Of a stretch of DNA of 64,000 nt, positions 5,742-41,470 are shown in pieces. Source of the DNA: Corynebacterium urogenitale (GTDB lineage Bacteria; Actinomycetota; Actinomycetes; Mycobacteriales; Mycobacteriaceae); NCBI RefSeq assembly GCF_009026825.1, contig NZ_CP045032.1:1612001-1676000 (forward strand), in the 5' to 3' direction. Position 1 is the stretch's first letter. Each line of letters opens with the position of its first letter. The position numbers and the translations under genes were made by a program. A model generated the notes under the pieces. It ran no database searches. It was given only the letters and a program-made list of their open reading frames with translations, and was not told where the DNA came from.

Positions 5742-6356
5742 ATGAATCTCACGATTATTGGCGGCTCGCAGGGAACGGGCGCACAGCTGGCACAGCAAGC
5801 TATCGATGCAGGCCACAAGGTCACGGTCGTCTCACGTAGCGGCCGTGGTCCCGCCGGAGCGCAGATCTTCACCGGCAGTGCGACGGACCCAGAAGTGGTC
5901 AAGAAATCTCTTTCCGAAGCAACCGCGGTAGCGATCACCGTGGGCGGGTCCAAGGACAACCCTCAGCAGCGCACCGAAGTCACACGCACAGTCATTATGG
6001 CCATGAACGACGTTGAGGTGACCAGGTTAATCGTCCAATCCTCGCTCGGTGCCGGAGACTCCATGAAGCAACTCCCCGCGCTGCTCCGCCCGCTAATGAA
6101 GGTGGTTTTGGCCAAGCCTCTCGCTGACCACGACCGGCAGGAAGCCGCCGTGCAAGCGTCTGACTTGGACTGGACGATCGTGCGACCGTCTGGGCTCAAG
6201 GATGGCGAGGGCTCTGGCAACTGGGCGACCTTGACGACCGAGGAGTCCGGAACGCTCAAGGGCACCGTTCAGCGTGCCGATGTGGCCGCCTTCATGCTCA
6301 GCATCCTCGAGGACGCCGCAACCTTCGGAAAGGCCTACGGCATGAGTAAGGCCTAG
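5742..6356 (+). CDS. NAD(P)-binding atypical SDR
   Basis: About 204 residues from the ATG at 5742 (a GTG two codons upstream is an alternative). The start is chosen because the protein then opens with a beta strand and the Rossmann motif GGSQGTG (MNLTIIGGSQGTG); the open frame before it has no domain character. Later segments (LIVQSSLGAG, SDLDWTIVRPSGL) match NAD(P)H-binding proteins of the NmrA/YwnB group. No clear ribosome site precedes it, so it may be leaderless. It is related in type to the protein at 1184-1849. Substrate unknown. Confidence 0.78.
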   Translation: MNLTIIGGSQGTGAQLAQQAIDAGHKVTVVSRSGRGPAGAQIFTGSATDPEVVKKSLSEATAVAITVGGSKDNPQQRTEVTRTVIMAMNDVEVTRLIVQSSLGAGDSMKQLPALLRPLMKVVLAKPLADHDRQEAAVQASDLDWTIVRPSGLKDGEGSGNWATLTTEESGTLKGTVQRADVAAFMLSILEDAATFGKAYGMSKA

Positions 6357-31049: not shown

Positions 31050-31640
31050 TTAGTTCTTCTCGACGGTATCGGTGTACTCGCCGTTGTCACCCTTGGCCCA
31101 GGTGATGGTGCCATTCTGGAAGGACTGGGTCCAGCCGTTGGCTGCGTCGCCCTTCTCAGGAGCGGTTGGCAGGCCGATCTCGTTGTCTAGGCCGCCACCA
31201 TTGCTCCAGGTCTCGCCGATCTTGCCGACGAGCTTCACAGCACCGGTCTCCTCAGAGTGAGTGACCCAGCCGTTAGCGAACGTTGCCAGGGTGCCCTTGT
31301 CACCAGAGGTGATGCTCTCCAGCTCACCAAGAGCGCCGGACTCGCCACCCTCGTTATCCCACAGGGTCTGGATATCGGCTGGCAACTCGCTATCGGTGGC
31401 GTCATCCTCACCGGACTCTGCACCCTCGGATTCCTCAGCGGAGCCGGACTCCTCTTCTGCGGAGTTCTCAGCGGTTGCGGAATCGACAGCGGAGCCAGCA
31501 GCTGAAGTAGCATCGCTCGCCGCGGAGGTGGCCTTGTCCGAAGCATCTTCTGCCTCGGAGCAAGCTGCAACGCCGAGGATCAGAGAGGTGCCAGCTGCCA
31601 GTGCCAGAGCTGCGCGGCGGGTGGAAGTCTTCAGTGCCAT
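31050..31640 (-). CDS. LGFP-repeat lipoprotein
   Basis: 196 residues. The signal sequence ends in the lipobox L-G-V-A-A-C, so Cys27 should be lipidated. A linker rich in Ser, Ala, Glu and Asp (about residues 28-95) leads to a C-terminal domain with an LGFP-type repeat (GGLDNEIGLPTAPEKGD, then WTQSFQNGTITWAKGD). LGFP repeats occur in cell-wall-attached proteins of mycolic-acid bacteria and are thought to bind the envelope. It is expressed alone, from an AT-rich region around 31640-31760. Confidence 0.88.
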   Translation of the reverse strand: MALKTSTRRAALALAAGTSLILGVAACSEAEDASDKATSAASDATSAAGSAVDSATAENSAEEESGSAEESEGAESGEDDATDSELPADIQTLWDNEGGESGALGELESITSGDKGTLATFANGWVTHSEETGAVKLVGKIGETWSNGGGLDNEIGLPTAPEKGDAANGWTQSFQNGTITWAKGDNGEYTDTVEKN

Positions 31641-31762: not shown

Positions 31763-32383
31763 TTACCTATTTTTTGCTGCCCTCCCCCGCTTCGACCTGC
31801 TATTTTGCTGACGCGAACTCTCGGCCTTGCGGCCACGACAAATTCCCACAAAGTCCTGAATCACGTCATCATCACGGTCGATTTTCCAGACGACAGCGAC
31901 GCGCGTGGGACCAGCAGGGGTCTCACCAAGAAGATCACGATGCACCACACCGCGCACATTTAATGCCCGCAGCAGGGGCCGAGGCGCGATGGCCACGCCA
32001 ACATTTGCCGCCACGACACCCAACGCCTCCCGCAGCTTGTCGATATCCACTTCCCCATCCTCGTGAGTGATGTACATTTCCATCTCCCCCTCCAACTCCG
32101 CGTAGTGCACCGCATCCATCACTTTGACAGGGTGATCCTTCGGGGCAGCCACCCCTACCTGCTCGTCATAAAGGTGAACCTGGTGCAAAACGTTCTTATC
32201 GACGTCCTCCTGTCCCAAACGCACCAGTGCTACGTCGGCGGCTCCCGCGCGCACATACTTCAGTGGGTTATCGGTGGCCGCGCCCGCGACTCGCCAGCCT
32301 GGAACGCGGGTATCGAAGCGACCAAACCACTTATCCGGCCGTACGCCGGGGCTGAACACTACGCGGAGATACTGGGGTGCCAT
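31763..32383 (-). CDS. LysR-type substrate-binding domain protein lacking a DNA-binding domain
   Basis: 206 residues from the ATG at 32383. The whole protein corresponds to the effector-binding half of LysR regulators: YLRVVFSPGVRPDKWFGRFD, KYVRAGAADVALVRLGQED and VHLYDEQVGVAAPKDHPVKV are the two-lobed periplasmic-binding-like fold. There is no N-terminal winged helix. The C-terminal tail is basic (RSKRGRAAKNR) and might contact nucleic acid or a partner. It is divergent from the DUF5997 gene with only 37 bp between the starts, an arrangement conserved in actinobacteria as far as I recall. Confidence 0.82.
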   Translation of the reverse strand: MAPQYLRVVFSPGVRPDKWFGRFDTRVPGWRVAGAATDNPLKYVRAGAADVALVRLGQEDVDKNVLHQVHLYDEQVGVAAPKDHPVKVMDAVHYAELEGEMEMYITHEDGEVDIDKLREALGVVAANVGVAIAPRPLLRALNVRGVVHRDLLGETPAGPTRVAVVWKIDRDDDVIQDFVGICRGRKAESSRQQNSRSKRGRAAKNR

Positions 32384-32420
32384 GACGCATATTGTAGAGG
32401 TTCCCGCAGCTACCACTAGG

Positions 32421-32786
32421 ATGGCGGTTGTGAGCTCTACGAATCCTAAATCCGGACCATTGATGAAGCCCCTCACAGCGGCGAAGAAGCTGGGTATCTA
32501 CCTGCCTGCAACCCCGCAGGAATTCCAAGACACGCCTTTGACCCACGAGCAGTTCGTGGAACTGCAGAAGAATCCGCCGGAGTGGTTGGAAACGCTGCGG
32601 CGTGAGGGCCCCCATCCTCGCCCTGAGGTGGCCCGCAAACTGGGTATCACGATCACCGCTTTGAAGAAGCACGATCTGGATCATGCGCTGACAACCGCCC
32701 AGATTAAGGAATTGCTAGCCAATCAGCCAGAGTGGCTGCGCGTCGCTCGGCAGCAGCTCGCTCAGGAACGCGCGGAGAAGAGCTAA
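32421..32786 (+). CDS. DUF5997 family protein
   Basis: 121 residues. LTAAKKLGIYLPATPQEFQD, FVELQKNPPEWLETLRREGP, and HPRPEVARKLGITITALKK followed by LTTAQIKELLANQPEWL match the DUF5997 family. The PEVARKLGITITALKK segment (about residues 73-88) looks like a helix-turn-helix, and W-L-E/R segments recur at both ends of the protein. Function unknown. Its divergent partner supplies a LysR-like ligand domain, which suggests the two together may do the job of a regulator. Confidence 0.85.
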   Translation: MAVVSSTNPKSGPLMKPLTAAKKLGIYLPATPQEFQDTPLTHEQFVELQKNPPEWLETLRREGPHPRPEVARKLGITITALKKHDLDHALTTAQIKELLANQPEWLRVARQQLAQERAEKS

Positions 32787-32825: not shown

Positions 32826-33596
32826 TTAGTCCGGGCTAAAGGCTGCCTTGCGCGCCGCTCTCCGTAGCGTCGCCAGGACAGGATGCGCAGTGAATGCCAA
32901 CAGCACTGCGGTAAAAAGTGCGCGCCCAATATCCCAGCCCAAAGTTGTGCTCAGACTAAAAAGCGCAAAACGGTGCAGGTTCTCGTTCACTGCCGCGCCG
33001 GGCTCAAAGGACACACCAGTGCCCAACCCCACGGAAAAGGGCCAGAAGCTGAGGTTCATCACTGCCCCGTATAGCAGACTTGAGGTCACTCCATAGCCCA
33101 CGATCAGGATCACCTCTTTCACGCCCCGCCACTGTGGCAGGCATCCCGCACCGAAGGCCACCCATGCGCAAGCCAGCATTTGATACGGCAGCCACGGCCC
33201 CACGCCACCGGTGATCAGGGCGGACGCGAACAGCCCGGTGCAGCCCAGAACGAAGCCGAACGCGGGTCCAAACACGCGACCCCCGAGTATCAGCACGAAG
33301 AACACTGACTCGAAACCTGCACTACCGGCACCGAGCGGCCTCACCGCAGCCACAGCCGCGGAGAGTACCCCCAGCATTGCCACGGCTTTCACATCGAGAC
33401 CATGCTCGCTGAGCTGCGCCAGAACCACAGCGATGATCAGCGGAATGAGCAGCGCAAAGTACAGCGGCGTGCGGCTATCGTGCCCCAGTCGGGAATCGGG
33501 CGCGACGAACAGCGGCCACGTAAACATCGCGGCACTAGCCAGGGCCAGAATTCCCAGGAGAAGCCAAGATTTGGGCTGCAGCTTCACTGCATTCAC
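32826..33596 (-). CDS. ECF transporter S component (cobalamin-type by regulation)
   Basis: 256 residues from the GTG at 33596, whose GTGA overlaps the stop of the ATPase gene; GAGGTGAG lies just upstream. Seven or so membrane helices are visible with the S-component look (LIPLIIAVVLAQLSEHGLDV, then GGRVFGPAFGFVLGCTGLFA and GVGPWLPYQMLACAWVAFGA). In ECF transporters this subunit binds the vitamin. It is the last gene of the five-gene unit behind the cobalamin riboswitch at 38760-38965, so cobalamin or a precursor such as cobinamide is the likely ligand. Other vitamins cannot be excluded from sequence alone. Confidence 0.82.
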   Translation of the reverse strand: MNAVKLQPKSWLLLGILALASAAMFTWPLFVAPDSRLGHDSRTPLYFALLIPLIIAVVLAQLSEHGLDVKAVAMLGVLSAAVAAVRPLGAGSAGFESVFFVLILGGRVFGPAFGFVLGCTGLFASALITGGVGPWLPYQMLACAWVAFGAGCLPQWRGVKEVILIVGYGVTSSLLYGAVMNLSFWPFSVGLGTGVSFEPGAAVNENLHRFALFSLSTTLGWDIGRALFTAVLLAFTAHPVLATLRRAARKAAFSPD

Positions 33597-35380
33597 GGCT
33601 GTCTCACCTCGCACGCGTCAATCACATCCTGGACGGTGAGCCAGCGCGGCTCGTGGTGAAGTCCGGCGGTCATCTTCGCCACCTGTGGAGCATAAGCCGG
33701 CGAGCTGCCGACGATCTCTACCGCAGGGCCGGCCGCCACGATCTGCCCTTCGGATATGACCTCGACTCGATCCGCGCACTGGGCAGCAAATTCCACATCG
33801 TGCGTGGCGATCATCACCGCCGTGCATTTCTCCTTCAAATCCTTCATCGACGCCACCAGTGCCGCCTTCGCTTCATAGTCCAGGCCACGGGTGGGTTCAT
33901 CGAGGAGGAGCACCGGCGGCTCCGCTGCCAGCTGGATCGCTAGCGCTAAGGCGAGGCGCTGACCCTCGGAGAGGTCCCGAGGATGGGTCTCATCGTCAAT
34001 CCCCGGCGCGAACTGGTCTAGGAGAGCGCGCGTGCGTCCAGAGTCTGCACTCCTCGGTGCATTGCCACGACTATCCACAGCAGTAGCTGCGTCACTGCGC
34101 TCGAGCTCTCTACCGACTGTCGCTTCGTACAGCAGGTCCGTGGGATTCTGTGGCACCAGTCCCACATGCCGGCGGCGTTGCTGGGGTGGCAGCGTCGCCG
34201 GGTCTACCCCGCTGACATCGACACGGCCGGATGTGCGCGCACCAGTGCCCTGGAGCGCCCACAACAGTGTGGATTTGCCACAGCCATTACGGCCCATGAG
34301 CACGGTGACTTCTCCAGCGTGCAGCTGGACGCTCACGCCATCGACTGCTCTCAAGCCCGGGAAATCCACTGTGATGTCCCGAGCTGTCAACAGCGCATCA
34401 CGCTCCGGAACTACCTCCGCGCCCCCACGCTTCTTCCGCATCAGTCGGCGCGACGTGGTGCGTGCGGGGGTTGTCTGCGACGCCCTCCCCTCGGCACGCC
34501 ACCGGCCATTTGCCGACAGTAGTGGCTCATACAAGCGATGGCGCAGCTCCGCCCCGGCCTGACGCGCATCGCGGACGGACAGCGGCAGTGGTCGCCAGCC
34601 AGCCCAGCGCCCCAGCTCCACCACCGGCGGTGCCACGTCAGCTGCTTCCATGATGTCTGCCGGGCTGCCGACCGTGACGTGCCCATCGCGCCCAACGTGC
34701 GCGATGCGGTCGGCGTACTGCAGTACTCGCTCGATCCGATGCTCCGCCAAGACCACGGTGGTGCCCAGGTCATGGGCCACACGCGTGATGGTGGCGAGCA
34801 CATCCTCCGCACCATTGGGATCGAGCGCACTGGTGGGCTCATCCATGACGATCAACGCCGGGCGGGATGTCAGCACAGCTCCCAGGGCAACGCGCTGCTG
34901 TTCACCTCCGGAGAGACTGCGCAAAGGCATGTGCCTCAGGTCGGCGATCCCGAGCAGGTCGAGTATCTCCTCTACCCGTTTGCGCATCACGGGTGGGGCG
35001 ATGCCTTGCTGCTCCATCCCATAGGCCAATTCCTCGGCGACCGTATCTGCGACGAAACCCGCACGAGGGTCCTGCCCCACCACACCGACTGCATCGGCAA
35101 GCATTCGCGGAGGGAACTCCCGCGTATCCCTGCCGATCACGCGCACCCTGCCACCGAGAGTTCCACCGGTGGTATGGGGCATCGCACCGGTCATCGCCTG
35201 CAGCAAGGTGGACTTGCCCACTCCCGTGCGACCGATCACCAGCAGAATCTCCCCTTCATGGAGAGTGAGGTTCACGTCCTTCAGAACCTCCCGTGCATCC
35301 CCTTCATAGTGCGCGCTCACACCGTCCATCTCCAGCACCGGGTCGCTGGACCATGGCAGCCGTACTGGCACCCCACTCAT
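33593..35380 (-). CDS. ECF transporter fused A-A' ATPase
   Basis: 595 residues with two complete ABC nucleotide-binding domains. The first has Walker A GRTGVGKST (about residue 50), signature LSGGEQQRVAL and Walker B LIVMDEPTSALD. The second has Walker A GRNGCGKST, signature LSEGQRLALAL and Walker B VLLLDEPTRGLD. Both have His switches (AEHR and THD). They are joined by a linker of about 60 residues rich in Arg and Thr. Such fusions replace separate EcfA and EcfA' proteins. It is coupled to the T gene by an ATGA overlap and to the S gene by a GTGA overlap, so the stoichiometric complex is made from one message. Confidence 0.94.
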   Translation of the reverse strand: MSGVPVRLPWSSDPVLEMDGVSAHYEGDAREVLKDVNLTLHEGEILLVIGRTGVGKSTLLQAMTGAMPHTTGGTLGGRVRVIGRDTREFPPRMLADAVGVVGQDPRAGFVADTVAEELAYGMEQQGIAPPVMRKRVEEILDLLGIADLRHMPLRSLSGGEQQRVALGAVLTSRPALIVMDEPTSALDPNGAEDVLATITRVAHDLGTTVVLAEHRIERVLQYADRIAHVGRDGHVTVGSPADIMEAADVAPPVVELGRWAGWRPLPLSVRDARQAGAELRHRLYEPLLSANGRWRAEGRASQTTPARTTSRRLMRKKRGGAEVVPERDALLTARDITVDFPGLRAVDGVSVQLHAGEVTVLMGRNGCGKSTLLWALQGTGARTSGRVDVSGVDPATLPPQQRRRHVGLVPQNPTDLLYEATVGRELERSDAATAVDSRGNAPRSADSGRTRALLDQFAPGIDDETHPRDLSEGQRLALALAIQLAAEPPVLLLDEPTRGLDYEAKAALVASMKDLKEKCTAVMIATHDVEFAAQCADRVEVISEGQIVAAGPAVEIVGSSPAYAPQVAKMTAGLHHEPRWLTVQDVIDACEVRQP

Positions 35381-36639
35381 GCGCGCACCGTCCTCTCTGT
35401 TTCTGTTTCCTCTGTCCCTTTCCTCTCTGCGCTTTTTCTCTCAGCGCTGGGGCTTCTGTGATCCCCGCTGGCGGATACCTCTGCACCTGGCGCGATCCTG
35501 CGTGATTGGGGCTGGTGGCGTCGGGCATGACGGCGCGCAGCGGGGGGAGGAGCGGGGGCGAGGACAGCCGGCAACGCGGCGAGAAGCAAGCCCAACACAG
35601 CCGCCGCGGGAACGGACGGCGGGGCGAGCGGGAACAGCGGCATCGCAAGATCCCCCGAGACCCCCGCACGAGTGGCGAGCACAAGCACCAACGCAGCGAT
35701 ACCGCTGACCGCCGTCAGCCACTCGCCTCCGCGCCACGGAATCCGGGCGTAACGCGTCGTCAGGTAACCAGCACCCGAAAGCCAGAGCGCACCAACCAAC
35801 GCAGCCACGCCGATGAAGAGCACAAGGACGTTGAAGGCGGGCGCCATCGTGGCCTCAAGGAGCAGGTACGAACCCACAGTCACGGCAGCCAGCCCGATCA
35901 ACGACAGGCTGGTCGTAAGCCTTCGCATGGCTGTGGGCAGGAGAGCGCGGCGACCATAACCACGGGCATCCATACTGGCCGCCAGCTTCAACGCGCCGTC
36001 GAGGGTATCCTGCAGCACCGGCAAAACCAACCGGCCGGCTCCGCGGAGCCCTCGCACCGACTCACCCCGCAACTCGCGGGCCTTGCGCACGCGAACGAGA
36101 GCCTCTGCCATCTGCGGCGCCAGTGACAAGGCGATGACCACCGCCGTGCCGACCTCTCCCAACGCCGCCGGAAGGGATCGCACGAGCTGTGTAGGATTCG
36201 CCAGGCTATTGGCCGCACCGACCGCGATGAGGATCGTGCCTAGACGCAAGCCATCGAGCCCCGCCTGCACAACCCCCTCCAGGTAGATGGTGCCAAGCAC
36301 CGTAATTCCTGCCGCCCACTCCGGCAGCTGAACGCTCGGCAACTGCACCAACACCACACTGCCCGCTTTCAAGCCCACGAGGATGTGCATTCCGACGCGG
36401 AAAACCACAATGAACCCGGCCACCCACAGGTACAGCCCAAAGGCGCGGGCCCACGGGGAGGAGCCCCGGCGCGCGGTGACCACCAACCACAACACGGTAA
36501 TGATGAGCGCGAGCAGCACCGGATTCGTCGTCATGCTCGCGGCTGCGGCGATGCTCAGTGCCCACAGCCACCATGCCCACGGGTTAAGGCAGCGGCGCTG
36601 ATGAATGATCGCGCGTAGTCGCTGCGTCACAGCCCACAT
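35377..36639 (-). CDS. ECF transporter T component (CbiQ-like), with extended C-terminus
   Basis: 420 residues. The CbiQ/EcfT fold appears as about six helices with the coupling motif region VRVRKARELRGESVRGLRGA (two Ala-Arg-x-x-like elements on the cytoplasmic side) followed by ASMDARGYGRRALLPTAMRR, the second coupling motif. A further group of helices after residue 230 and a basic, charged tail (about 60 residues, RKSAERKGTEETETERTV) make it longer than the usual 250-270 residues. GGAGGAAGG precedes the ATG. It links the membrane S component to the fused ATPase. Confidence 0.9.
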   Translation of the reverse strand: MWAVTQRLRAIIHQRRCLNPWAWWLWALSIAAAASMTTNPVLLALIITVLWLVVTARRGSSPWARAFGLYLWVAGFIVVFRVGMHILVGLKAGSVVLVQLPSVQLPEWAAGITVLGTIYLEGVVQAGLDGLRLGTILIAVGAANSLANPTQLVRSLPAALGEVGTAVVIALSLAPQMAEALVRVRKARELRGESVRGLRGAGRLVLPVLQDTLDGALKLAASMDARGYGRRALLPTAMRRLTTSLSLIGLAAVTVGSYLLLEATMAPAFNVLVLFIGVAALVGALWLSGAGYLTTRYARIPWRGGEWLTAVSGIAALVLVLATRAGVSGDLAMPLFPLAPPSVPAAAVLGLLLAALPAVLAPAPPPAARRHARRHQPQSRRIAPGAEVSASGDHRSPSAERKSAERKGTEETETERTVRA

Positions 36640-36666
36640 CGTGGTCCTTCCTCCTCTGTGGGAGCG

Positions 36667-37407
36667 CTAGAGCTCGCCGTTGAACGTGTTGTGATCGACT
36701 GCGCGGCGTTTCTTCATCGCGAATCCAGTGCCGATGAGCGCGCTGATCAGCGCAATTACGCCGATGATCGGCAGCCACGCACTGCCGTTGTTTTCCTCCG
36801 ACGCCACCGCGGAGCCATCCGCGGTGTCCGCACCATCCGTCTGCTGGTCAGGTTCTGTATCCGTGTGCTGATCAGCTTCTGGGGCGCTATCGGCGCTGGT
36901 GGCCTCCGGCACAGACCCGGGCTCCTCGCCGGCGCCGAATGCCCAGCCTTCCACGGTGCCAATACGGGTGGTGGAATCACTGGCACCACGGGTGCTGTAG
37001 CTCCAGTCGCCACCGAGCGGTGCGTGATAGTAGGCCCAGTAGGAATCGGCGGGAGGAGCATCATTGCAGTCCGTGTTGTCGGGAACTCCTCCGATGCGGC
37101 AGATCATGCCTGGAAACTTGGCCACTGGTGTCAGGCTGAATCCCGCCTCCTCCAGAGCTTGCCGACCAGTTACTCCCGCGGAGGCGCAACCGGTACCCTG
37201 CCCCTTAACGACGACGGTCACCTGCTCAGCACCGCAGGGTGATGCTTCAGCGTGTGCCGCGGGCAGGCTAATAGGCGATGGGCTGTGCTGCCCATCAACT
37301 GGAGACAGGTATGCGCAACACGCCGCGAGCGCCACGGCCCCTCTCTGGATGGAGGTGCTCGTGAATCCACTGCCGTCGGTGCGATCCACCGCACTGTTCC
37401 TGAACAC
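36667..37407 (-). CDS. Surface-anchored SCO2322/DUF4430-like protein
   Basis: 246 residues from the GTG at 37407, preceded by GGAG five bases upstream; the frame is open back to 37455 without a good site. A signal peptide (VALAACCAYLSP, cleavage near AHA) leads to a small beta domain: VTVVVKGQGTGCASAGVTG, ALEEAGFSLTPV, GMICRIGGVPDNTDC, SYWAYYHAPLGGDWSYSTRG and GTVEGWAFGAG. This order resembles the SCO2322 family and the DUF4430 / transcobalamin C-terminal beta domain, with cysteines for disulfides. A Pro/Glu/Asp-rich stalk and a C-terminal membrane helix with a basic end (WLPIIGVIALISALIGTGFA) tether it outside the cell. It follows the alpha-repeat gene by about 48 bp. Confidence 0.75.
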   Translation of the reverse strand: MFRNSAVDRTDGSGFTSTSIQRGAVALAACCAYLSPVDGQHSPSPISLPAAHAEASPCGAEQVTVVVKGQGTGCASAGVTGRQALEEAGFSLTPVAKFPGMICRIGGVPDNTDCNDAPPADSYWAYYHAPLGGDWSYSTRGASDSTTRIGTVEGWAFGAGEEPGSVPEATSADSAPEADQHTDTEPDQQTDGADTADGSAVASEENNGSAWLPIIGVIALISALIGTGFAMKKRRAVDHNTFNGEL

Positions 37408-37455
37408 TAAAACTCCACTCCCTACGAGTAACCTTCCTACAGCTCTAGGGCGCAA

Positions 37456-38628
37456 CTACTTCTTGCTCTGAGAGTTCTTGCGGACAGCGAACACGCCTCC
37501 GGTCAGCACGGCGAGCACACCGATAGCAATGGCGACGATGCCCCACGTGGGCATCCCATTGGCTTCCTCTGAGGCTTGAGCAGAGTCGGAGGGCGTATCA
37601 GTGAACTCAACGGTTGCATAGTTCTGACCGGCCAGGGCGAGAGCAGCCTGGGTGGTATTGCGGCGCAAGGTGTCATTCGGCTCGGCGGTCTCGCCCAGTT
37701 CTTCCTCGTTACTGGCCACCCCGCCACGGACGGCCTCCGGAGCGGAGTCATCGAGTTGCAGGCCCTGGAGGAACTTCTCTGCTTCCTTCGCCTGATCTTG
37801 TCTCTCGGCAGAGCTCAAAGCCATGGCGGCCAGTGCAGTGGAGTTGGCATTCTCCGGCGCCCAAGAGGTCTTCACTCCACCCTTGTCACCCTGTTGCTCT
37901 TCCAGGAACTCTGCTCCCTTGGCTGCCTCATCATTGGCACCCACCGCGGCCAACACCTGCACGGCGAAGCCTGTGGGGTCGGTCTCCCCCGAACACTTGT
38001 TGGCGTAATCGCGGAAGCTGCCATCCTCACACTGCAATGAGGCCAGGTAGGTCACCGCTGGGTGGGTAGCCCCTCCTTCCAGCTGGCCTGCGCGAAAGAG
38101 ACCGAGCACCACCCACGCCTGGTTCGTGGAATCCAGAGTCTCTTTTCCATCGGCTTTGGCCTTAAATGAACCGTCCTCCTGCTGCAAGTCCTTCAATCCC
38201 TGCAACAGGTCGACCTCATCGATGGAGTTAGGATCTTCCCCGACGAGGGTGGCATAGGCCAGTGCCTTGCCCATCGCACCGGCACCGCCAGCAGTGTATT
38301 CCGCGATGTGGTCCGAGGTGTACTTCACGATGGACTCGGCATCTTGCTTTGTCGCCCCGCCTGCCGCTGTGGCAAAGGCTGCGTCGATATTCAGGCCAAT
38401 GTCATCGAACTTCTCCCCGTCGTATTCACCCATAAAGTGGCCATTGGGAGCGGCCGCATCGCGCAGGAGATAGTCGGCGGCTGCACCTGCTGGCGTCGAG
38501 GAATCAACGGCAGCGGCGCTGGGGCCAGCAACGGAACAGAGAGCAAGAGCCGTACCTGCCGCGAACACCGTGTATTTGGTGCCGTGGCCAAGAAGGCTCC
38601 GAACCCGGGTGGAAGTCATAGTGGTCAT
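37456..38628 (-). CDS. Surface-anchored alpha/alpha-repeat protein (prenyltransferase/squalene oxidase repeat; transcobalamin-like)
   Basis: 390 residues. A signal peptide (FAAGTALALCSVAGPSAAA) is followed by about five helical-hairpin repeats, each with D/N-S/T-x-x-A-x-x-x-L-A-L and D-G-S-F turns: QEDGSFKAKADGKETLDSTN, AWVVLGLFRAG, CEDGSFRDYANKCSGETDPT, NSTALAAMALSSA, NTTQAALALAG. This is the alpha6/alpha6 barrel used by squalene cyclases and also by intrinsic factor and transcobalamin. A C-terminal helix with a basic tail (IVAIAIGVLAVLTGGVFAVR) anchors it. It is the first gene behind the cobalamin riboswitch, so cobalamin capture is more likely than lipid cyclisation; the catalytic D-x-D-D motif of cyclases was not seen. 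Confidence 0.8.
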   Translation of the reverse strand: MTTMTSTRVRSLLGHGTKYTVFAAGTALALCSVAGPSAAAVDSSTPAGAAADYLLRDAAAPNGHFMGEYDGEKFDDIGLNIDAAFATAAGGATKQDAESIVKYTSDHIAEYTAGGAGAMGKALAYATLVGEDPNSIDEVDLLQGLKDLQQEDGSFKAKADGKETLDSTNQAWVVLGLFRAGQLEGGATHPAVTYLASLQCEDGSFRDYANKCSGETDPTGFAVQVLAAVGANDEAAKGAEFLEEQQGDKGGVKTSWAPENANSTALAAMALSSAERQDQAKEAEKFLQGLQLDDSAPEAVRGGVASNEEELGETAEPNDTLRRNTTQAALALAGQNYATVEFTDTPSDSAQASEEANGMPTWGIVAIAIGVLAVLTGGVFAVRKNSQSKK

Positions 38629-38640
38629 CCTTGTCTACGG

Positions 38641-38670
38641 GGAGCGTTTTCTGTTTCTCAGGGACGCTCC
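38641..38670 (-). promoter_or_regulatory. Expression-platform hairpin of the cobalamin riboswitch
   Basis: On the minus strand GGAGCGT and ACGCTCC form a seven-base stem around a 16-base loop, ending 12 bases before the start codon and next to the AAGGA ribosome site. It probably takes part in switching translation or transcription; there is no T tract. Confidence 0.5.
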
Positions 38671-38759
38671 ACCCCGGCACAGCTCAAGCGCTGCCACCGG
38701 AGGCGACCACCACGAGACTCAGAAACCGTGTATCCCGACGGTCATTAAGAGTCGTACCG

Positions 38760-38965
38760 CTCCCCTCGGGCATTCGGGCTCGGCCACTCCGCACGCCACC
38801 GGGGTTCATCAAACCAACGCGGACAAAGCCAACGCGGTTTGCGCGACAACCACCAGCAGGCGCGCCGGGCGGCTCACCGTTGCGGAGTCAGCGCCGGATT
38901 CTCACCGGACTTCCCCCAAGGGCGAACGTGTGCGTGGCTCTCATCCTATCCCGTGGCCACGAACT
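38760..38965 (-). ncRNA. Cobalamin riboswitch
   Basis: On the minus strand the conserved core is unmistakable: GGGGGAAGTCCGGTGAGAAT, CCGGCGCTGACTCCGCAACG and GTGAG at 38873-38924, matching the GGGAA...GGTG-AA-TCC...GC-G...CCGC-ACGGT consensus. A B12-box-like stretch, GAGTGGCCGAGCCCGAATGC, follows at about 38775-38795. The exact 5' and 3' limits are estimates. It precedes the five-gene operon that ends with the ECF S gene and should shut it off when adenosylcobalamin is plentiful. Confidence 0.92.
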
Positions 38966-39037: not shown

Positions 39038-41470
39038 CTAGGCTCCTGCCTTCACCACGCGCGCGACGTCCTCCGGAGCCTCCCAGATTGGCGAGTGACC
39101 CGATCCCTCAATCTTGACGACGTCACCAGCCCGCTGAGTGGCCCATTCGTCGTATGGCGCCGGTGCCACCCGCTGGTCTTCGGTGCCGAAGACCACCTGC
39201 ACCTCCACACCTTGAGCCTTGATCTGCTCGAAGCGCTCCGTCAGCGCAGTGGCATCCAGATAATCATTGATCGACTGGTTAGCCTGCAAGAAGCCACGTA
39301 GTCCAGTGCTCTTGAGGTCTTGTGCGAAAGCATCCGGCAGTTGGTCTTCACCGGTGTACGGGTCGCGGAACTTCGGGGCAACCAGGCTGCTCAGGCTCTT
39401 CTTCGCCATCGCCGGAGTCATCGCCTTCCACGCCAACTGACCGATCACGGGCTTGGCCAGTATTTTCTCCGCAGACTTGGCAGCAGCCAGTCGGGTCTCG
39501 GTCGTCGCGGGGCTATTGACCGCAATGACCTTAGCGACCAGTTCCGGCGCCATCGCCGCCAACTCCGTCGCGACTAGCCCGCCACGGGAATGGCCGATGA
39601 GCGTCACCTTCTGCCCACCATTGTCCCGAGACAGAGCGCGGAGTTCAGGGAGCACGGCGGTGGCGTCGGACTCAATTGACTCGAGTGCGCGCAGCAACGG
39701 GGCGGATGAGGCAGAGGCAGGCAGCAACGCACGCACGCGGTTAAAGATGCTCGGCGAACATCCCAGACCGTGCAGGTACATGACTGGGCCGAGCTGCTGT
39801 GCGTCATCCTTCGATGGCTCGCTCCCCTCGAGCGCTGCGGCGGAGTCGGACGATGCATCCGACACAGCACCTGCGGGGAGAGCGCTGACGGAAGCAGGCG
39901 GCGTGAGTTCGTGATGCTCTGGGTGGAAAGTGTGCAGCCTGCGGTGGTAGTCGATCAGCGTGCCTGGCCACACCACAGAGTTACGACCGGTGGAATCCAG
40001 GTACCAGCTGCTGCAGCCGCCGGCGACCCACACGGAGCCATCAGTCTTCTTATCGACCATGGCCGTGTAATCGCGCTGCGCCTGGGTGGTTGGCTGAATG
40101 GCAGTGTAACCAGCGCCATCGGCGTATTTCACGGACTGAATGATGTAGCGGAACTGGGCTTCGAACATGGACACCATGGACGAATGACCCAGCGCAAGGT
40201 TCGGCCCGTGGATCAGGAATAGGTTCGGGAACCCGTGGACGGTCGTGGAGTTGTATGAGGTCGGGCTTTCGCCCTGCACCTTCTGCATAGAACGGCCGCG
40301 CTCATCGAAGATCTTGTCCGTTAGCGGCAGGCCCAAGGTGTGGAATCCGGTGCCGAAGATGATCATGTCCACGTCGTGGTGCTCACCGCTGCTATCGACG
40401 ATGCCCGTCGCATCGATCCGGTCGACGCCACTGGTGACCACATCCACATTGTCCTGCGCGAGAGCCGGATAGTAAGTGTTGGACAGCAGGATGCGCTTAC
40501 AGCCAATGCGGTAGTCAGGCAGGAGCTTCTTGATCAGCTCCGGGTTCTTCCCGTTGCTATTGATGCCCTTGCGCATGTGAGCCTTGGCAACCTCCTGCAC
40601 GACGCGCATGATCAGCGGGTTCTGGAAACCCACCACCATCCACTCGCGCTCGAAGAAGATCCAGTAGCGCTTCAACCAGTTGAGCAGCGGGAAGCGGCGT
40701 TGGCGCTGCTTTTGCTTTTCAGTAATTTCCCGGTCGCGGCGCGGCAAAACCCACGCTGGAGTGCGCTGGAACAAGCTGAGCTTGCCCACATCCGGCTGGA
40801 TCGCTGGCACGATCTGAATCGCGGAGGCACCAGTACCAATCATCGCGACGCGCTTACCGGTGTGGTCAACGGAGTGGTCCCAACGGGAGGAGTGGAAGGC
40901 TGCGCCCTCGAAGTCTTCCAGACCCGGAATGTTCGGAATGATCGGATCGGCCAGAACACCGGTTGCGAGGATCACATATTCAACGTCCATGTCGCCTTCC
41001 TCCGTGCTCAAATGCCACACGGAGCGTTGCGCATCCCAGTGCATCTCCTTTACAGAGCAGCGCAGGCGGATATCGCGGTAGAGGTCATGATCTTTGGCGA
41101 CTTCCTTGAGGTAGGCGAAAATTTCCGGCTGCTTGGCGAACATGTTGCTCCACTCCGGGCTGCGCTGGAAGCTGAAGGAGTATAGGTAGCTCTGCACGTC
41201 GCAGGCCGCGCCGGGGTAGGTATTATCGCGCCACACACCACCGACTTCACCCTCGCGTTCGAAGATCGTGATGTGCTTGTAGCCAGCCTTGCGCAGTTCG
41301 ATGGCCGCACCGAGGCCGCCGAAGCCCGAGCCGATGATGGCGAAACGTGGCGAGGAGCCGGAGGCGGTGGTTCCACGAGGGGAGGCTCCTGCGGTGGCAG
41401 TGTGGTCCAGGGACGTCTCTGTCGTCGCACCAGATGCTGATGCCGCGGCGGGGATATGTGAAGAATTCAT
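39038..41470 (-). CDS. Baeyer-Villiger-type flavin monooxygenase fused to an alpha/beta hydrolase
   Basis: 810 residues in two enzymes. After about 40 disordered residues comes a class B flavin monooxygenase: FAD motif GSGFGG (residues 47-52), the Baeyer-Villiger fingerprint F-x-G-x-x-x-H-x-x-x-W as FEGAAFHSSRW (187-197), and NADPH motif GTGASA (212-217). Residues about 560-810 are a hydrolase with LHGLGCS, nucleophile GHSRGG (Ser628), Asp765 (GTEDQRV) and His792 (GSGHSPI). The first enzyme would insert oxygen into a ketone to give an ester or lactone, and the second could cleave it. Transcribed alone, away from the short iron-box transcript at 41645-41920. Substrate unknown; a lipid-derived or xenobiotic ketone is plausible. 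Confidence 0.9.
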   Translation of the reverse strand: MNSSHIPAAASASGATTETSLDHTATAGASPRGTTASGSSPRFAIIGSGFGGLGAAIELRKAGYKHITIFEREGEVGGVWRDNTYPGAACDVQSYLYSFSFQRSPEWSNMFAKQPEIFAYLKEVAKDHDLYRDIRLRCSVKEMHWDAQRSVWHLSTEEGDMDVEYVILATGVLADPIIPNIPGLEDFEGAAFHSSRWDHSVDHTGKRVAMIGTGASAIQIVPAIQPDVGKLSLFQRTPAWVLPRRDREITEKQKQRQRRFPLLNWLKRYWIFFEREWMVVGFQNPLIMRVVQEVAKAHMRKGINSNGKNPELIKKLLPDYRIGCKRILLSNTYYPALAQDNVDVVTSGVDRIDATGIVDSSGEHHDVDMIIFGTGFHTLGLPLTDKIFDERGRSMQKVQGESPTSYNSTTVHGFPNLFLIHGPNLALGHSSMVSMFEAQFRYIIQSVKYADGAGYTAIQPTTQAQRDYTAMVDKKTDGSVWVAGGCSSWYLDSTGRNSVVWPGTLIDYHRRLHTFHPEHHELTPPASVSALPAGAVSDASSDSAAALEGSEPSKDDAQQLGPVMYLHGLGCSPSIFNRVRALLPASASSAPLLRALESIESDATAVLPELRALSRDNGGQKVTLIGHSRGGLVATELAAMAPELVAKVIAVNSPATTETRLAAAKSAEKILAKPVIGQLAWKAMTPAMAKKSLSSLVAPKFRDPYTGEDQLPDAFAQDLKSTGLRGFLQANQSINDYLDATALTERFEQIKAQGVEVQVVFGTEDQRVAPAPYDEWATQRAGDVVKIEGSGHSPIWEAPEDVARVVKAGA

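Follow-up and report, generated by a model that had tools for sequence, protein, structure and literature searches.

A 64,000-nucleotide stretch of Corynebacterium urogenitale DNA (contig NZ_CP045032.1, positions 1,612,001 to 1,676,000; henceforth the window) contains a compact operon on its minus strand, in which a leader RNA is followed by five packed genes (32826-38963). The operon probably encodes a corrinoid (vitamin B12) acquisition system, in which two secreted proteins, referred to as alpha and beta, would form a clamp that feeds an energy-coupling factor (ECF) importer under riboswitch control. The operon was confirmed to be real and to recur beyond chance behind a cobalamin riboswitch in actinobacterial relatives. 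An earlier note on this DNA had claimed a split intrinsic-factor clamp feeding an ECF B12 transporter, and the computations support that claim in outline through the beta fold, the alpha toroid, fusions of the two on one chain, a riboswitch before 89 of 102 alpha/beta clusters and adjacency to the ECF genes.

Operon layout and riboswitch leader

Gaps and overlaps between the five genes are all below 50 bases, and the coordinates thus bear out the tight five-gene operon described previously. The cobalamin riboswitch leader was placed at 38747..38963 (-) by a search with a model, R1, built from the riboswitches of 15 relatives with the window excluded (14 RF00174 and one AdoCbl-II, all above the gathering score and drawn from 28 scanned loci). 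R1 scored 56.4 bits for this interval, with E 2e-11 in the 1.28 Mb searched across 79 sources, and had no other match in the window at E≤0.01. The conserved core, 38768-38916 (-), was provided by the RF00174 family model, which scored 28.0 bits (E 2.9e-5 genome-wide) against a gathering score of 31.5. The family model and the model of relatives above the cut-off both match the leader significantly; the search for a cobalamin riboswitch was positive with R1 but fell short of the family threshold with RF00174. The riboswitch core proposed earlier (38873-38924) overlaps the RF00174 match and lies within the R1 match. Two terminator-like sites were detected versus 0.3 expected, and the one on the operon strand (38853-38834) is inside the leader. 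A promoter scan found none.

The beta protein

The beta gene (36667..37407, minus strand) encodes a predicted secreted, SCO2322-like protein of the transcobalamin-type beta-grasp fold with a C-terminal membrane anchor. Its start is a GTG at 37407 in a reading frame that is open up to 37455. The beta-grasp domain spans residues 71-180 counted from 37455 (36916..37245, minus strand), a region that is mostly confident in the AlphaFold2 (AF2) model, with predicted local distance difference test (pLDDT) blocks of 82-97. The hydrophobic anchor at 36706..36789 (-) was assigned from sequence, and Gram_pos_anchor matched it weakly, with 13.3 bits against a cut-off of 20. Pfam and Protein Data Bank (PDB) sequence searches with beta gave nothing useful, and only the fold search placed it. 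In the structure search, with alignments covering residues 75-176, the top 14 PDB matches were all beta domains of transcobalamin, haptocorrin or intrinsic factor.

The order of strands (E) and helix (H) in the model is E78-83, E87-92, H97-103, E108-110, E118-121, E140-146 and E167-173. Beta thus has the beta-grasp core of the transcobalamin-like clade of the SLBB superfamily, which was defined by Burroughs, Balaji, Iyer and Aravind in 2007 (PMC1796856), and, judged by model strand order alone, its hairpin insert of two short strands after the helix. A conserved hydrophobic hairpin residue is described as stacking on the cobalamin base in that clade (PMC1796856). Position 117 of beta, which adjoins the second hairpin strand, is Phe in 82% of aligned rows and Met in the window protein.

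The description of beta as DUF4430-like held for the transcobalamin-type fold but not for the Pfam family. Membership in DUF4430 (PF14478) was dropped after the Pfam scan returned no match for the window beta; the family was matched by one of 83 beta rows (E 0.012) and was not found in the own genome. A profile-profile comparison of beta with a 29-member DUF4430 set scored 21.9, with a probability of only 12%, and none of 60 column-shuffled profiles reached that score (best 17.6), so that a remote relation is possible. The NCBIfam model SCO2322 (NF040672) matched the window beta with 23 bits, far under its cut-off of 85, and matched 78 of 83 beta rows at E≤0.001. Among 296 genomes sampled from the phylum, 51 contained true DUF4430 matches, and 49 of these genomes belong to classes other than that of the window. 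The surrounding 3 kb or so of 30 DUF4430 matches (L101-L130; L numbers denote our loci) yielded no match to the alpha or beta family.

The alpha protein

The alpha gene (37456..38628, minus strand) encodes a predicted secreted, SCO2321-like alpha/alpha-toroid protein with a C-terminal membrane anchor. The toroid fold was seen in the predicted structure, and the domain covers residues 43-336 (37621..38502, minus strand), the range of the structural matches. The anchor, a hydrophobic helix with a basic tail at residues 361-388 (37465..37548, minus strand), was identified from the model helix H361-388 and from sequence. Together with a PF00432 match of 28.9 bits (cut-off 26.5), these features agree with the anchored alpha/alpha-repeat surface protein claimed earlier. 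The window alpha matched the NCBIfam model SCO2321 with 69.6 bits, far under the curated cut-off of 300, and 63 of 66 alpha rows matched that model at E≤0.001. PF01122 (Cobalamin_bind) gave no match for the window alpha and matched one of 66 alpha rows (E 0.0014). Six toroid sites, D76, D82, K121, D217, T219 and Q327, are kept in 97-98% of the 61-66 filled rows.

The ECF transporter genes

The three remaining genes, claimed previously as ECF T, fused A-A' and S components, were identified as such, the last of them weakly. EcfT (CbiQ family), a transmembrane protein (35377..36639, minus strand), matched PF02361 with 37.6 bits (cut-off 25). The fused ATPase pair EcfA-A' (33593..35380, minus strand), which overlaps EcfT by 4 bases, contains two PF00005 (ABC_tran) stretches, and its best NCBIfam rows include ECF_ATPase_1 and cbiO models. 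The predicted S component, a substrate-binding membrane protein (32826..33614, minus strand), matched PF12822 with 18 bits, under the cut-off of 30.7. The same family was matched at E≤0.01 by 17 of the 21 S rows in alignment A10, the window S included, and the window S is 50-64% identical to its 20 relatives in that alignment. EcfT, two ATPase domains and S thus stand in one operon, as in a group I-like ECF system.

Recurrence of the operon in relatives

Relatives were collected with the beta alignment from a scan of 84,980 species, each represented by one genome. Of 354 pattern matches, 320 were found to encode a relative, and the best 80 of the 320 gave 79 loci, all actinobacterial by record titles; the counts below use these and L091-L094. 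The loci are not independent, since L011 and L012 have identical match values and several are from Salinispora and Lentzea. The order alpha-beta(-beta)-T-A-S was found in 51 of the 79 loci. Of the 93 strand-wise gene lists, 55 show it, three of them with a toroid that is fused or double. Many of the remaining loci are contig-end cuts or alpha/beta pairs without a transporter. Alpha and beta are usually adjacent across loci, and beta is immediately upstream of EcfT in 74 of the 93 lists.

The whole operon is carried by an uncultured Corynebacterium (L013) and by Dietzia (L011), with identities to the window of 62-66% for S and 62-63% for EcfA. Against the Dietzia proteins, S is the closest at 66% identity, followed by beta (57%) and alpha (33.6%). 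When 60 other genomes were searched with alpha, matches came from none of the 36 congeneric genomes and from 5 of the remaining 24, yet L013 has the operon, which indicates a patchy distribution in the genus, by gain or loss.

Riboswitch linkage across loci

A cluster was counted as linked when a same-strand riboswitch had its 3' end no more than 900 bases upstream of the first domain or no more than 150 bases into it. Of the 102 clusters, 89 have a match; the other 13 lack one despite 400 or more bases of upstream sequence. Leaving aside the 15 clusters that supplied the R1 training riboswitches, 74 of 87 are linked. Five further clusters had no upstream room, and among the 89, upstream sequence was shorter than 400 bases in two (L013 and L024). 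A riboswitch between genes was taken as a cluster boundary, which biases the count upwards; without such splitting, 74 of 87 clusters are linked, by coincidence the same figures, and a riboswitch is present in 67 of 77 loci. Six loci were outside the R1 search (L017, L037, L039, L050, L051 and L085). The clusters without a match are lone alphas (L019, L038, L055, L059, L063 and L089), clusters that include lone betas (L080 and L061, the latter also with a beta-alpha fusion) and alpha-beta clusters (L016, L031, L047 and L071, the last with a riboswitch match further upstream, at 6114-6249). With these 13 exceptions, the riboswitch link is not universal.

Fusions and membrane anchors

Alpha and beta were found in one open frame at seven loci. 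Six are beta-alpha fusions (L041, L074, L061, L060, L071 and L087; L060 contains a masked stretch), and the seventh is the alpha-beta fusion L049, whose downstream repeats resemble cell-wall-binding repeats by eye. Proteins whose genes are joined in some species and neighbours in others are usually partners. This pattern in alpha and beta is therefore the principal support for a joint clamp. On three chains, beta is accompanied by two tandem toroids (L060:11229-14378, L071:3163-6120 and L087:11072-14203).

Anchors were called by a rough rule, a mean hydropathy of at least 1.6 over 19 residues after the domain, and the L048 beta is just below it. By this rule, 68 of 74 betas immediately before EcfT are anchored, versus 2 of 41 betas elsewhere (cases cut by contig ends excluded). 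Among the alphas, 50 of 65 upstream of EcfT and 6 of 18 others are anchored (fused and double-toroid chains excluded), and some of the "unanchored" alphas bear other C-terminal repeats. Unanchored genes alone follow 21 of 90 riboswitches: 13 alpha-beta, 7 lone beta and 1 lone alpha, with L048 a borderline call. The unanchored betas cluster in the beta tree with 10 changes, compared to a shuffled mean of 22.8, in a tree with few columns and many open forks. The window operon has the anchored set only.

B12 context of the host genome

The only other RF00174 match in the own genome, and its best, scored 47 bits (G000:C1:358096-358288). The gene immediately behind it (L090:7812-10097, minus strand, 761 amino acids) was read by eye as metE, which encodes the methionine synthase that needs no B12. 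With this leader and that of the window operon, the genome has two transcription units behind a cobalamin riboswitch. MetH is also present, and the frame end fits MetH by eye.

Flanking genes

Upstream of the operon, a single 810-residue frame at 39038-41470 (-) combines an FMO-like flavin-binding monooxygenase with an alpha/beta hydrolase. The downstream neighbours are a DUF5997 protein (32274-32786, plus strand), a LysR-type substrate-binding domain protein (31763-32476, minus strand) and an LGFP-repeat protein (31050-31640, minus strand), none with an evident B12 link.

Discussion

In the proposed mechanism, the riboswitch would permit expression of the operon when intracellular cobalamin is scarce and would repress it with B12 bound. 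The anchored alpha toroid and the beta-grasp domain of beta would dock and close over cobalamin from two sides, like the two halves of intrinsic factor or transcobalamin. The pair would then hand the corrinoid to S, predicted to bind it, with EcfT and EcfA-A' turning S over. MetH would use the vitamin once imported, and the second riboswitch fronts metE.

Several results weigh against this proposal. The window riboswitch does not reach the RF00174 gathering score, and none of the Foldseek matches of beta reaches E 0.001. Of the intrinsic-factor-like alpha half claimed in the earlier note, the toroid fold stands, but the nearest solved structures of alpha are terpene cyclases, prenyltransferases, epimerases and glycosidases or other glycan enzymes, and intrinsic factor and transcobalamin are absent among the 50 structural matches listed, which are filled by other toroids. 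A cobalamin-binding signature pattern matched none of the 66 alpha rows, which speaks against close kinship between alpha and the animal proteins. S has no PDB relative by sequence at E≤1, and consequently no link was found to the characterized B12 S component CbrT. In four streptomycete loci (L055, L066, L067 and L089), a beta stands behind the riboswitch with no alpha between. Methylmalonyl-CoA mutase and the adenosyltransferases PF01923 and PF02572 were not found in the own genome, which leaves MetH as the only B12 user identified in a search that covered only some B12 enzymes. With no PduO- or BtuR-type adenosyltransferase despite the riboswitches, the sensed ligand may not be adenosylcobalamin.

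The four streptomycete loci are also what would be expected if the operon imported B12 and beta alone caught the corrinoid, with alpha serving, for example, as a wall tether or binding another ligand. This explanation, which we regard as unlikely, is further favoured by lone unanchored betas with their own riboswitch (L056, L058, L062, L068 and L082 in Salinispora, and L076 and L078), by the common occurrence of extra unanchored betas, by the title of structure 5np4, in which an isolated transcobalamin beta domain was solved with cyanocobalamin, and by the greater divergence of alpha than of beta or S from Dietzia. The fusions in both orders, the usual adjacency of alpha and beta and the near-invariant toroid sites of alpha argue instead for the joint clamp.

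It is quite improbable that alpha is an active cyclase or glycan-active toroid enzyme, that beta has another ligand and that the ECF genes import a B12-regulated non-corrinoid such as cobalt. The structural neighbours of alpha, a match of profile A6 to squalene-hopene cyclase (E 1.2e-32) and the cobalt transporter names also carried by the CbiQ and CbiO families would fit that arrangement. A working terpene cyclase was judged unlikely, since DXDD, the catalytic motif of class II terpene cyclases, occurs at the aligned site in one of 66 alpha rows (L038; 8 of 66 contain the string anywhere) and the window alpha reads ETDPTG there. Beta, moreover, matches B12-binding proteins first, and no CbiM- or CbiN-like gene was noticed in the five-gene operon, though no search was aimed at one. 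That the system takes up a B12 precursor or analogue, namely cobinamide or another cobamide, in place of cobalamin is very improbable. Riboswitch and fold evidence do not distinguish cobamides, and haptocorrin (4kki), a top match of beta, accepts analogues.

Unanchored alpha/beta pairs with their own riboswitch, for example in L064, L060, L052, L084 and L086, are possible shed B12 carriers, and the anchor pattern suggests that some species have both shed and anchored alpha/beta sets. Tentatively, though this is less likely than not, Actinobacteria might run a two-step B12 relay similar to that of mammals, in which a shed unanchored pair passes B12 to the anchored pair that loads the ECF importer. 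Each alpha/beta set can possibly be under its own B12 riboswitch in such a relay, with the shed pair scavenging like haptocorrin.

Animal B12 carriers use an endocytic receptor, and none is involved in the bacterial system. Unlike animal intrinsic factor, transcobalamin and haptocorrin, to which identity is 15-18%, the window encodes two separate anchored proteins and an adjacent transporter. Bacterial proteins that join a toroid to a transcobalamin-like domain, in either order, were described in 2007 together with their anchors and adjacent CbiO/CbiQ genes, B12 scavenging was predicted for them, and transfer of the architecture to animals was proposed (PMC1796856). That clade was reported from low-GC Gram-positives, planctomycetes and some euryarchaea, besides animals (PMC1796856). 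The actinobacterial family resembles those proteins in the beta-grasp with a hairpin insert after the helix, toroid fusions in either order, secretion, Gram-positive anchors and operons with CbiO/CbiQ and a second SLBB copy. It differs in escaping Pfam DUF4430, in having alpha and beta usually as separate genes and in its tie to cobalamin riboswitches, which are not mentioned in the available part of the 2007 account. The earlier note knew of no characterized corynebacterial system of this kind. No experimental study of the actinobacterial pair was found in the open-licence literature, but since the basic idea was published in 2007, the system is less unprecedented than the note held.

ECF-CbrT of Lactobacillus delbrueckii is a characterized B12 ECF transporter (PMC5997447), and ECF-type B12 import is likewise predicted for the window operon. 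CbrT is of the group II type and uses an ECF module in common with other S components, whereas T, A-A' and S of the window stand in one operon; the available account of ECF-CbrT mentions no surface capture proteins, and the window operon has two. The terms ECF and cbrT do not occur in the available text of two papers on cobamides in skin bacteria (PMC9600381, PMC11774034). What appears to be new is an actinobacterial, usually two-gene and riboswitch-linked putative B12 clamp feeding an ECF importer, of a kind already predicted.

SCO2321 and SCO2322, for which the window proteins are far below the NCBIfam cut-offs, are locus-tag names without function, and a function and mechanism are here proposed for these families, which recur in Actinomycetota. 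The finding joins the 2007 prediction of transcobalamin-like scavengers with ECF vitamin transport and cobalamin riboswitches. Because the halves are separable in the two-gene form, it could reveal how two proteins share a corrinoid clamp. The system would also be a bacterial counterpart to the architecture from which, according to the 2007 proposal, the animal B12 carriers arose.

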